Source of the DNA: Candidatus Lightella neohaematopini | GTDB taxonomy: Bacteria; Pseudomonadota; Gammaproteobacteria; Enterobacterales; Enterobacteriaceae | Length of the DNA: 34,483 nucleotides | NCBI GenBank assembly: GCA_025728375.1 | Contig: JAOBJS010000003.1 | Span: 1-34,483, forward strand | Reading direction: 5' to 3' | Part shown: positions 6,232-32,153 of the stretch, one piece after another | How positions within the stretch are numbered: position 1 is the first letter of the stretch | Layout: each line of letters opens with the position of its first letter | The notes under the pieces: generated by a model | The model's database searches: none | Told to the model about the DNA's origin: nothing | What the model saw: only the letters and a program-made list of their open reading frames with translations | Position numbers and translations under genes: made by a program

Positions 6232-7308
6232 ATGATTTATAAACCACTGACATTAAAATGGCGTCCTAGATGTTTTAATGATTTAATAGGCCAAGATCAC
6301 ATAGTTAATGCTTTTACTAACGCATTTAACTTAAATAAAATTCATTATGCATATATTTTTTCTGGTTCCTATGGTATAGGAAAAACTACAATAGCTAGAT
6401 TATTAGCTAAAAGTTTGAATTGTATTAATAATAGTATAAATATTTGTGATACATGTGATGCATGTGTAGAAATACAAAATAATTGCTTTATTGATTTAAT
6501 AGAAATTGATGCTGCATCATCTTCTGGAATAGATAATATTAAAGAATTAATAGATAATGCTCAGTATTTTCCGGTAAAAGGAAAATTTAAAATCTATTTA
6601 ATTGATGAAGTACATATGCTATCTCGTAGTAGCTTTAATGCTTTATTAAAAATACTAGAAGAACCTCCTTCACATGTTAAATTTTTATTAGCTACTACTG
6701 AATATAATAAAATACCAAAAGTAATTACTTCTCGTTGTTTACATTTTAATTTATTAAAAATAAGTAATGACGAAATTATTTTATATTTAAAAACTATTTT
6801 AACTAAAGAACAAATATTATTTGATAAGCAAGCAATAATTTATATTACAAATGTTGCTAATGGTAGTTTACGTGATGCATTAAATTTAACTGATCAAGCT
6901 ATAGTTTTTGGTAAAGGAAAGATAATTTTAAATATTGTAGTTAGGATGCTTGGTATAGTGGATATTAATCAATTAGTATTAATTCTTGAATTAATAATAT
7001 TAAATGATACTAATCAATTAATTAATACTATTAATAATATATCTACAAACAATATTAATTGGGAAAAATTTTTAACTGATATCTTATTAATACTACATGA
7101 TATTTTATTAATTAAAACTTTATCAAATTACAATATTAATTATAATAAAAACATATTATTTCGTTTAAACAGTATTTCAAAATCATTATCAATTAATACT
7201 ATAAGAAATTATATTGATTTAGTATTAAATGGTTATAAAGAATTATTAATAGTAGATAATAAAAAATTAGTGGTAGAAATAACATTACTAAAATTAATTA
7301 ATTATTGA
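6232..7308 (+). CDS. dnaX: DNA polymerase III clamp-loader subunit DnaX, short form (domains I-III only)
   Basis: LKWRPRCFNDLIGQDHIV, Walker A GSYGIGKTT, zinc-module cysteines (CINNSINICDTCDAC), SRC sensor (ITSRCLHF). Ends at VEITLLKLINY, equivalent to the end of E. coli domain III. Confidence 0.95.
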   Translation: MIYKPLTLKWRPRCFNDLIGQDHIVNAFTNAFNLNKIHYAYIFSGSYGIGKTTIARLLAKSLNCINNSINICDTCDACVEIQNNCFIDLIEIDAASSSGIDNIKELIDNAQYFPVKGKFKIYLIDEVHMLSRSSFNALLKILEEPPSHVKFLLATTEYNKIPKVITSRCLHFNLLKISNDEIILYLKTILTKEQILFDKQAIIYITNVANGSLRDALNLTDQAIVFGKGKIILNIVVRMLGIVDINQLVLILELIILNDTNQLINTINNISTNNINWEKFLTDILLILHDILLIKTLSNYNINYNKNILFRLNSISKSLSINTIRNYIDLVLNGYKELLIVDNKKLVVEITLLKLINY

Positions 7309-28359: not shown

Positions 28360-31146
28360 ATGTTACCTAAATTTATACATTTACATACAAGAAGTGAATA
28401 TTCTATAATAGATGGATTATCTAGCATTAATCAGTTAGTAAATCAAGCAGTAAAATTTAATATGCCTGCATTAGCAATTACTGACTTTACTAATTTATAT
28501 GGTGTAATTAAATTTTATAATGTTGCTTGTAATTTAGGTGTAAAACCAATCATTGGTGCTGATTTTATTATTAAAGACTACACTAACAGTTATCAATCAT
28601 ACGCAATTACAGTATTAGTAATGAATAATATTGGTTATAGCAATTTAATTTGTTTAATATCTAAAGCACATAAATATAAGATAAATACATCTAGTGTTTT
28701 TATTTATCGTGATTGGCTAAAGTATCACAATTCTGGATTAATTATCTTATCTGGAGCACAATTTGGAGATATAGGACAATGTTTATTATATAATCAAAAT
28801 AATAAACTAAATTATTATATTTCTTTTTATAAAACTTATTTTCGAAATAGTTTTTACTTAGAAATTACACGTAATGGTTTTGAATTAGAAAATGAATATT
28901 TAAATAAAGTTATTGATTTATCTATAGATCAGAACTTACCATTGTTAGCAACTAATAATGTTAGATTTTTAAAAAAAGATGATTTTGAAGCACATACAGT
29001 TAGAGTTGCTATTAGCAATGGTAGTTATGTAAATAGTAATAAAAGTTTATCTACTTCTTATAGTAAAGAACAATATATGAAAAATGAAAAAGAAATGTGT
29101 TTACTATTTAATGATATACCAGAATCATTAATAAATAGTGTTGAATTAGCTAAAAGATGCAATGTTACTATTACATTAGGAAAATATTTATTACCAAAAT
29201 TTCATGTGCCAAAAAAATATACTGCTGAAAAGTATTTAATAAAAATTTCTAAGCAGGGATTAATAAATAGATTAAAAAACAATTTTACTAATAAAATTGT
29301 AAGAAATAAAAAATGGATTACTTATTATCAAAGATTGAATTTAGAATTAAATACTATTATTAAGACTGGTTTTACTAATTATTTTTTAATAGTATCAGAA
29401 TTTATTAATTGGGCAAAAAATAATAATATACCTGTTGGTCCTGGACGGGGATCTGGGGCTGGATCATTAGTAGCTTATGCTTTAAATATCACTGAACTAG
29501 ATCCATTATTGTTTGGTTTAATTTTTGAAAGATTTTTGAATATAGAAAGATTATCTATGCCTGACTTAGATATTGATTTTTGTATGGAAAAACGAGATTT
29601 GGTAATTAATTATGTTGTTAATAAATATGGTGTAGATAATGTAGCACAAATCATTACTTTTGGAACTTTAACTGCTAAGGCAGTTATTCGAGATGTTGGT
29701 CGTGTTCTCGGATATCATTATAATTTTGTAGATAAAATTGCTAGATTAATCCCTATAGATTTTGGCATAACTTTAAAAAAAGCAATTTCAACCGAACCTA
29801 AATTAGCAAAATTATTTAGTAATAATGAAGATGTAAAAATTATATTAAATATGGCTTTTAAATTAGAAGGAGTAATCCGTAATGTTAGCAGGCATGCTGG
29901 AGGAATTGTTATTACACCGAGTAAAATTATTAATTTTGCCCCATTATATTTTGACGATAAGAGTAATTATGCAGCGATACAATTAGATAAAACTGATATA
30001 GTTAAAATTGGCTTAGTTAAATTTGATTTTTTAGGTTTAAGAACCTTAACAATTATTAATCATACTATTAATATGATTAATAAAAAAAATACAAAATTAG
30101 GATTAAGCAATATTCATTTATCTAATATTAAATTAAATGATAAAAATAGTTTTATTTTATTAAATAAAATACACACCAATGCAGTTTTTCAGTTAGAATC
30201 AAAAGGTATGCAAGATTTAATAAAAAGATTAAAACCAGACTCTTTCGAAGATATTATTGCATTAATAGCTTTATTTCGTCCTGGACCATTACAATCTGGT
30301 ATGGTAGATAACTTTATTAATCGTAAACATGGTATAGAAAAAATCTATTATCCTGATATTAATTGGCAACATGATTTATTAAAACCAATTTTAAAATCTA
30401 CTTATGGTATTATTCTATATCAAGAACAAGTTATACAAATAGCACAAGTATTAGCTGGTTACAGCTTTATTGATGCTGATATATTACGTCAAGTAATTAG
30501 TAAAAAAAATTTTGCAGAAATGGATAAACAAAAATTATTATTTGTCAATAATGCTAAAAAAAATAGTATTAGTGAACAATTAGCTACTAAAATATTTTAT
30601 TTCTTAGAAAAATTTGTTCACTATGGATTTAATAAATCTCATTCTACTGCATATGCATTGTTATCTTATTATACATTATGGTTAAAAGCTAATTATCCAG
30701 CAGAATTTTTATCATCTGTAATGACGACTAATATAAATAATCAAAAAAAAATATCTATTTTGATTCAAGAATGCGCTCTTATGAACATAAGAGTTATGTT
30801 GCCAGAAATTAACTACAGTCAATATCATTGTTATGTTTATAATAACATTATTATATGTGGTTTAGGTATGATTAATGGCTTAGGATCTAATATAGCTAAG
30901 GAAATTATTAAAAAACGTAGTCAGGGAAAATTCAAAAATTTATTAGATTTTTGTGTCCGTGTTGACACTAGAATAGTTAATAGATCTATAATTAAACAAT
31001 TAATAAAATTTAATGTCTTTCGTCTGTTAAAAATAACTAATAAGTCTAATGAAGATTATATTAACAATATTATAAACAAATCTAAACAATATGGTAGTTA
31101 TTCAAAACATCAAACTGATATGTTTATACATGTAATTGATAAATGA
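28360..31146 (+). CDS. dnaE: DNA polymerase III alpha subunit (C-terminally shortened, 928 aa)
   Basis: PHP domain FIHLHTRSEYSIIDGL, PVGPGRGSGAGSLVAYAL, catalytic MPDLDIDFCMEKRD and LVKFDFLGLRTLT, YGFNKSHSTAYALLSYYTLWLKANYPAEF. C-terminus is QTDMFIHVIDK. Confidence 0.97.
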   Translation: MLPKFIHLHTRSEYSIIDGLSSINQLVNQAVKFNMPALAITDFTNLYGVIKFYNVACNLGVKPIIGADFIIKDYTNSYQSYAITVLVMNNIGYSNLICLISKAHKYKINTSSVFIYRDWLKYHNSGLIILSGAQFGDIGQCLLYNQNNKLNYYISFYKTYFRNSFYLEITRNGFELENEYLNKVIDLSIDQNLPLLATNNVRFLKKDDFEAHTVRVAISNGSYVNSNKSLSTSYSKEQYMKNEKEMCLLFNDIPESLINSVELAKRCNVTITLGKYLLPKFHVPKKYTAEKYLIKISKQGLINRLKNNFTNKIVRNKKWITYYQRLNLELNTIIKTGFTNYFLIVSEFINWAKNNNIPVGPGRGSGAGSLVAYALNITELDPLLFGLIFERFLNIERLSMPDLDIDFCMEKRDLVINYVVNKYGVDNVAQIITFGTLTAKAVIRDVGRVLGYHYNFVDKIARLIPIDFGITLKKAISTEPKLAKLFSNNEDVKIILNMAFKLEGVIRNVSRHAGGIVITPSKIINFAPLYFDDKSNYAAIQLDKTDIVKIGLVKFDFLGLRTLTIINHTINMINKKNTKLGLSNIHLSNIKLNDKNSFILLNKIHTNAVFQLESKGMQDLIKRLKPDSFEDIIALIALFRPGPLQSGMVDNFINRKHGIEKIYYPDINWQHDLLKPILKSTYGIILYQEQVIQIAQVLAGYSFIDADILRQVISKKNFAEMDKQKLLFVNNAKKNSISEQLATKIFYFLEKFVHYGFNKSHSTAYALLSYYTLWLKANYPAEFLSSVMTTNINNQKKISILIQECALMNIRVMLPEINYSQYHCYVYNNIIICGLGMINGLGSNIAKEIIKKRSQGKFKNLLDFCVRVDTRIVNRSIIKQLIKFNVFRLLKITNKSNEDYINNIINKSKQYGSYSKHQTDMFIHVIDK

Positions 31147-31178
31147 CATTATTAATATAATTTTAATTGTAAAATATT

Positions 31179-32153
31179 ATGAATCTAGAATATCTTGATT
31201 TTGAACAACCAATCATAGAATTAGAAGAAAAGATTAATTTATTAAGTCTTAATAATAAGACAAAAATAAACGATGTTAATTTATCTAACAAAATTAGCAA
31301 ATTAAAAAAAAGAAGTATTGAATTAACTAATAAAATATTTTCTAATTTAAATAAATGGCAAATAATACAATTAGCAAGACATCCATTAAGACCCCATACT
31401 ATAGATTATATTAATACTATCTTTACTGATTTTGATGAACTATCTGGTGATCGTATGTTTTCTGATGATAAAGCTATTGTAGGAGGTATTGCTCGTTTAG
31501 AGTCATATTCAGTAATGATAATAGGTCATGAAAAAGGTCGCAGTGTCAAAGATAAAATTAAGCGTAATTTTGGTATGCCATCACCAGAAGGTTATCGAAA
31601 AGCTCTTAGATTAATGCGTATGGCTAATAATTTTGATATTCCAATAATTACTTTTATTGATACTCCAGGAGCTTATCCTGGTATAGAAGCTGAAGAACGT
31701 GGACAAGCAGAAGCAATAGCAAGAAATTTATTAGAAATGTCTCATTTAAATGTACCAATAATATGCACTATAATAGGTGAAGGTGGATCTGGAGGTGCTT
31801 TAGCTATTGGAGTAGGTGATAAAATTAACATGTTACAATATAGTATTTATTCAGTTATATCTCCAGAAGGATGTGCTGCATTATTATGGAAAGATAGTAG
31901 TAAAATATTATCGTCTATTAAATCAATGAATATAACTGCAATAAATTTAAAAAAATTAAAATTAATTGATAGTATTATTAATGAACCTTTAGGTGGAGCT
32001 CATAAAAATTTGCAATTAACTGCAATAAATATAAAAAAGCAATTACTAATAGATTTAAATAAATTAAAATTTCTAAGTAAGAAACAGTTATTGAAAAATC
32101 GTTACCATAAATTAATTAATTATAATTATGAATTAAGTATGCAAATAAAATGA
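31179..32153 (+). CDS. accA: Acetyl-CoA carboxylase carboxyltransferase alpha subunit
   Basis: [65 protein letters not shown]. Confidence 0.97.

Follow-up and report, generated by a model that had tools for sequence, protein, structure and literature searches.

In the textbook replisome, the tau protein joins the polymerase, the clamp loader and the helicase. The polymerase subunit of Escherichia coli, DnaE or alpha, is a member of the DnaE1 group and shares with the protein described here all domains up to the HhH domain, the place of the internal clamp motif and the gene order dnaE-accA, but it additionally has an OB fold and a tau-binding domain and is 1160 instead of 928 amino acids long. 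Its internal site, as put forward by Dohrmann and McHenry in 2005, reportedly is the sole clamp site of alpha that is needed for processive replication in E. coli. Clamp binding is weakened, and partly rescued by epsilon, when E. coli alpha is cut at residue 956 or 975, whereas no binding is left after a cut at 917, ahead of the motif, where epsilon is of no help (PMC3642679). Deletions of the tail reduce the clamp affinity stepwise and the OB domain contacts the clamp (PMC3642679, PMC4703070); the loop 927-936, located right behind the clamp motif, is disordered (PMC4703070). Strains with an uncoupled alpha-tau contact are viable, with ssDNA gaps and SOS induction (PMC11869525). Among the approximately 1,600 C-family polymerases surveyed in 2014, DnaE1 variants without an identifiable C-terminal domain (CTD) and one truncated after the OB fold were described, while forms without both OB and CTD were found only among DnaE3 and DnaE2 and in no DnaE1 (Timinskas 2014, PMC3919608).

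Investigating Candidatus Lightella neohaematopini, we analysed a window of 34,483 nucleotides (contig JAOBJS010000003.1, C34 in our numbering), which belongs to a metagenome-assembled genome (MAG) of 460,641 bp in 45 contigs; the host of this symbiont most likely is the chipmunk louse. According to the frame translation, its dnaE (Table 1) ends with ...YSKHQTDMFIHVIDK-TGA. The protein matches E. coli alpha 4-924 in tblastn, with 52% identity over that span, and MAFFT needs only one single-residue gap between E. coli residue 872 and the motif, the pairing of QTDMF with QADMF being unambiguous. PHP, Pol3_alpha, fingers and HHH_6 families were detected by Pfam, while neither PF01336 (OB) nor PF20914 (C-terminal) gave a match in Lightella DnaE, with the E. 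coli control positive for both. Regarding the architecture of DnaE1, the equivalog match, the PHP-Pol3-(HhH)2 arrangement and the clamp motif are thus found and the OB fold and tau-binding domain are not. The score against the error-prone DnaE2 model NF004225 (554.5 bits) is below its cut-off of 939, which does not place the protein among DnaE2; the genome contains one C-family polymerase and hence no PolC, so a system of DnaE3 and PolC is not present either. Across the seven Lightella genomes the motif reads QTDMF or QIDMF, with Q, D, M and F invariant. The AlphaFold model (pLDDT 87.5) superimposes on the E. coli alpha cores 2HNH, 2HQA and 4JOM with TM scores of 0.91-0.94, and its residues 917-928 are without structure.

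Table 1. Features of the dnaE region and dnaX in the Lightella window (positions in the window)
Feature	Position	Strand	Evidence
dnaX, 358 aa, clamp-loader domains I-III only	6232..7308	+	tblastn match limited to E. coli DnaX 1-359
dnaE, Pol III alpha, 928 aa	28360..31146	+	NCBIfam NF004226, 1145.9 bits (cut-off 1002); single Pol3_alpha match in genome
PHP domain, residues 7-171, epsilon-binding surface	28378..28872	+	Pfam PF02811
Polymerase core, residues 292-559, with D402, D404, D556	29233..30036	+	Pfam PF07733; columns invariant, 49 sequences
Fingers domain, residues 562-735	30043..30564	+	Pfam PF17657
Tandem HhH domain, residues 810-894	30787..31041	+	Pfam PF14579 (HHH_6)
Linker from HhH to clamp motif, residues 895-917	31042..31110	+	E. 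coli alignment, one single-residue gap; codons 886-917 dN/dS ~0.20
Internal beta-clamp-binding motif QTDMF, residues 918-922	31111..31125	+	Counterpart of E. coli QADMF 920-924
Six unconstrained residues IHVIDK and TGA stop	31126..31146	+	dN/dS ~1.3; most variable six-codon window of the gene
Spacer, 32 bp, without remnant of lost tail	31147..31178	+	Frames between dnaE stop and accA
accA, ancestral dnaE neighbour	31179..32153	+	PF03255, 6e-141, AccA from residue 1; same order in E. coli

Six sister Lightella assemblies (L469, L207, L220, L217, L201, L208), which come from separate louse libraries (PMC9376444), encode DnaE proteins that are 87-95% identical and end at the same place; the last residues drift (IHVIDK, MHVIDE, THLTD, IHPNNK, among others), with one stop shifted by one codon. 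No DnaE sequence was found in other frames downstream of the stop, and decoding of TGA as a residue would lengthen the protein by just two codons, followed by TAA. No homologue of E. coli alpha 925-1160 is encoded in any of the seven Lightella genomes according to a whole-genome search, and profiles (HMM) of the OB domain, the CTD and the whole tail gave a RecG-like OB fold as their sole match in the six frames of the own genome. An assembly or sequencing error such as a frameshift near 31140, or a recoded stop, might be suspected in a MAG in 45 contigs, but with six other assemblies sharing the DnaE end, the 32 bp up to accA free of tail sequence in every frame, and a read-through worth two codons, we consider it extremely improbable; frameshift and recoding were rejected on these grounds, and a C-terminal piece encoded elsewhere was rejected by tblastn, the search of seven genomes and the profiles with their one RecG-like match. 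Going by the assemblies, the truncated DnaE has become fixed throughout the genus Lightella.

These results bear out the original prediction, which had placed the end of the DnaE frame behind QTDMF as the counterpart of E. coli QADMF 920-924 (tblastn to 4-924, a single gap in MAFFT), had stated that about 230 C-terminal residues with the OB fold and the tau-binding domain are absent (Pfam with the E. coli control, genome searches), and had put the start of accA 32 bp past the stop, without a remnant of the tail (no DnaE in other frames). Its view that the cut retains the clamp motif and loses the distal part agrees with the alignment with E. coli and reduced relatives. A frameshift with tail sequence continuing behind it and a separate gene for the DnaE C-terminus had been named as observations that would speak against it; the former was not seen in the sequence, the sister genomes sharing the end, and the latter is found in none of the seven Lightella genomes.

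Among the Lightella genomes, dN/dS is approximately 0.15 in the core of dnaE as well as in the five motif codons and rises to approximately 1.3 past the motif, this last value being derived from six codons only; of 917 six-codon windows in dnaE, none reaches the variability of the stretch after the motif. Judged by these ratios, the dnaE stop lies at the edge of selection and constraint ends at the motif. The equivalents of the catalytic Asp residues (D402, D404, D556) are invariant in 49 sequences, and dN/dS of about 0.15 together with the intact active site led us to reject dnaE as a pseudogene. A profile search of the own genome found no polymerase domains of PolB, DinB or PolA. As far as sequence can tell, DnaE is a working replicative alpha, and no further DNA polymerase was found in the genome. 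PolA is present as a 5'-3' exonuclease only, of 298 aa.

The reduction extends to the partner of the lost tail. Lightella DnaX contains PF13177, PF22608 and PF12169, but the tau domains IV (DnaB contact, PF12168) and V (alpha contact, PF12170) are absent from it, the E. coli control being positive for all five families. In this it is like the short DnaX of Buchnera type (NCBIfam PRK14961, 363 positions), which likewise has domains I-III only, although its score of 411.5 is below the cut-off of that model (562); a DnaX ending after domain III is common in small symbionts of the Enterobacteriaceae. DnaN, DnaQ and HolB are encoded in the Lightella genome, and the three-protein clamp loader consisting of DnaX domains I-III, HolA and HolB is still encoded; HolA is very diverged, with approximately 20% identity to E. 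coli delta, the reduced PolA and HolA being observations on contigs C2 and C8. HolC and dnaA were not found in the own genome. DnaQ (epsilon) retains the exonuclease motifs, a sequence resembling the clamp hexapeptide (QNIIHF/QSIIKF) and the alpha-binding C-terminus (...LDLIQKNGYCLWR), and SSB retains the tip NFDDDLPF.

A graded loss emerged when DnaE and DnaX were compared across 80 reduced genomes belonging to the same family. The tau-binding domain (CTD) is absent from DnaE in 23 of the 80, mostly with an end near E. coli 1057-1100 and the OB fold kept; OB is lost as well only in Lightella and Nardonella (g95). Six genomes have a detectable tau domain V, all of them with full-length DnaE, and none of the 23 without CTD has one. 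This association has the expected direction but is not significant (Fisher p = 0.17), and the genomes are not independent; because of this p value, the order of loss from tau V over CTD to OB is consistent with the data, not statistically proven. Full-length relatives can have a weakened clamp motif (G288, G286, G201). G112 (L127) still carries fresh remnants of the alpha C-terminus (E. coli 1089-1159) just behind dnaE, in interrupted frames ahead of accA, a CTD loss caught midway. In genus g91 one of the two genomes G294 and G217 has a separate ORF with tau domain V alongside full-length DnaE, and in its congener neither tau V nor the DnaE CTD is left. Genus g128 (G133, G241; L173) has DnaE in two frames, with a break at residue ~151 inside the PHP domain. 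In-frame TGA codons occur in dnaE, rpoB, and dnaX or dnaQ of genus g120 (G125, G236, G310, G373; genomes of approximately 0.26-0.30 Mb), which suggests that TGA is decoded as a residue there. In G373, the annotated frame of dnaQ (L255) closes with a long stretch of lysines at the epsilon C-terminus, which may mark slippage or a frameshift in a homopolymer.

Nardonella, a symbiont of weevils (g95, including G100), shares with Lightella a DnaE of 921-930 aa with the stop 1-4 residues past the motif (QIDMF-E, QIDMF-N, QINLF-KNLI, QLNIF-RGKK), a DnaX of domains I-III only and the presence of epsilon. It differs in being very diverged and in an epsilon without the CLWR tip, and the loss probably occurred independently; all 11 proteins from Lightella and Nardonella retain the motif despite a diverged neighbouring linker. 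The shared end-point would be no convergence if one truncation had been inherited from a common ancestor of both. The signal of the DnaE trees is ambiguous: the core tree (LG+C20) does join them at 93/94, albeit without the star and with long branches, and a short-search rpoBC test did not reject a Lightella-Nardonella clade (p-AU 0.70). The finished search under the mixture model for rpoB+rpoC, however, groups Nardonella with the OB-bearing genus g120 at 100/100 and Lightella with Wigglesworthia-like taxa at 95/95, and the AU test on it rejects the clade (p = 0.026); furthermore, Lightella is sister to Puchtella in 14-gene trees, in which Nardonella was not included (PMC9376444). A single event is, in our opinion, unlikely, and two independent truncations, as suggested by these trees, are the more likely history. 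Even in the case of one event, persistence of the motif at the tip over very long branches would speak for function.

Regarding function, Lightella DnaE is likely to be a functional alpha that was eroded from its C-terminus to the first element under selection, so that the clamp peptide now practically forms the tip. It could be objected that the tail was lost by drift in a passively decaying, impaired enzyme, in which the motif is terminal by coincidence or not yet decayed and which is no clamp-dependent minimal replicase. Deleterious losses do accumulate in obligate symbionts, clamp motifs are weakened in the full-length relatives named above and in Portiera, and clamp binding is poor in tail-deleted E. 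coli alpha (PMC3642679). Passive decay is nevertheless hard to reconcile with a motif at dN/dS ~0.15 directly beside a stretch at ~1.3, with 11 of 11 intact motifs next to a diverged linker and with two lineages stopping within 1-6 residues of the motif; the peptide reads GINKLF in the Portiera-like G718, where dnaN is gone, but is also weak (GIKDLF) in the dnaN-bearing G599. We regard it as quite improbable. Even less probability, in fact very little, is given to a supply of the OB and tau-binding functions in trans by a host-encoded or imported protein or by an unrecognised symbiont gene. Aminotransferase import into Nardonella has been reported (PMC10816905), and import has been proposed for other symbionts without polymerase subunits (PMC5322561). 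A homologue of the tail is absent, however, from all Lightella genomes searched, and the tau surface for tail binding is gone as well; therefore, nothing would be left for a tail in trans to restore.

The best reading of the data appears to be a step-wise erosion to a clamp-tethered alpha-epsilon-beta replicase, whose function we infer from its sequence. Tau domain V would have been lost first; because of this loss, the tau-binding domain of alpha would have become useless and been lost, with the OB domain next. The resulting alpha-epsilon-beta enzyme would stay on DNA through two short peptides, contributed by alpha and epsilon respectively, that occupy the two clamp pockets. Nothing encoded in the DNA would physically connect it with the clamp loader or with DnaB, so that leading and lagging polymerases would be recruited independently onto clamps loaded by an unlinked loader of the gamma type, which may be tolerable for a slow-growing symbiont of 0.46 Mb. 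The Lightella end, equivalent to E. coli ~930, falls in the interval from 917, where the construct fails, to 956, where it works, and no tested E. coli construct ending at ~927-930 was found in the literature; since tail deletions reduce clamp affinity in E. coli and OB touches the clamp, a 928-residue alpha may be only weakly processive. The case is stronger than the original prediction could know, because the tau partner surface is gone, constraint drops to neutral right behind the motif and the Nardonella protein has its stop in the same spot. With somewhat less confidence, we tend to favour the overall picture of one stripped polymerase copying the chromosome, touching the replisome only via clamp peptides, with alpha, loader and helicase uncoupled, an end-state that would have been reached independently in Lightella and Nardonella and, OB-less but less precise, in Portiera.

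Close relatives thus seem to display the order in which ties of the replisome can go (tau V, alpha CTD, then OB). An erosion that halts at the clamp peptide would be direct evolutionary evidence for the internal clamp motif as the irreducible distal contact of the DnaE1 replicase, and these natural compact proteins could be used for asking whether strand coupling is needed at all. A literature search outside subscription journals returned no published description of a DnaE1 lacking OB and CTD in such symbionts. In a class-wide survey of DnaE, based on the best 150 matches listed per table and an individual recheck of small genomes, two Portiera-like genomes (G599, G718) outside the family lack OB and CTD; the short DnaE frames of G497 and G783 run off contig ends. 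The Portiera-like proteins (935-937 aa) share the loss of the OB and tau-binding domains with Lightella, but stop ~40 residues past a weakened motif. G718 is without dnaN and dnaQ, G599 has both, and loss of dnaN and dnaQ has been reported for Portiera of B. tabaci (PMC5322561). The same OB and CTD domains are missing in DnaE3 (Thermotogae, some Tenericutes) and some DnaE2 (Timinskas 2014, PMC3919608); DnaE3 pairs with PolC and DnaE2 is accessory, whereas Lightella has a sole DnaE1, and a sole DnaE1 without both OB and CTD is an architecture not contained in that survey of ~1,600 C-family polymerases. In fold and length, Lightella DnaE is nearly equal to the E. coli alpha core structures 2HNH and 2HQA (1-917) and to chain A of PDB 5m1s (927 residues deposited); yet the laboratory chain 1-917, which is cut ahead of the clamp motif, shows no clamp binding, whereas the natural Lightella chain stops just past the motif.
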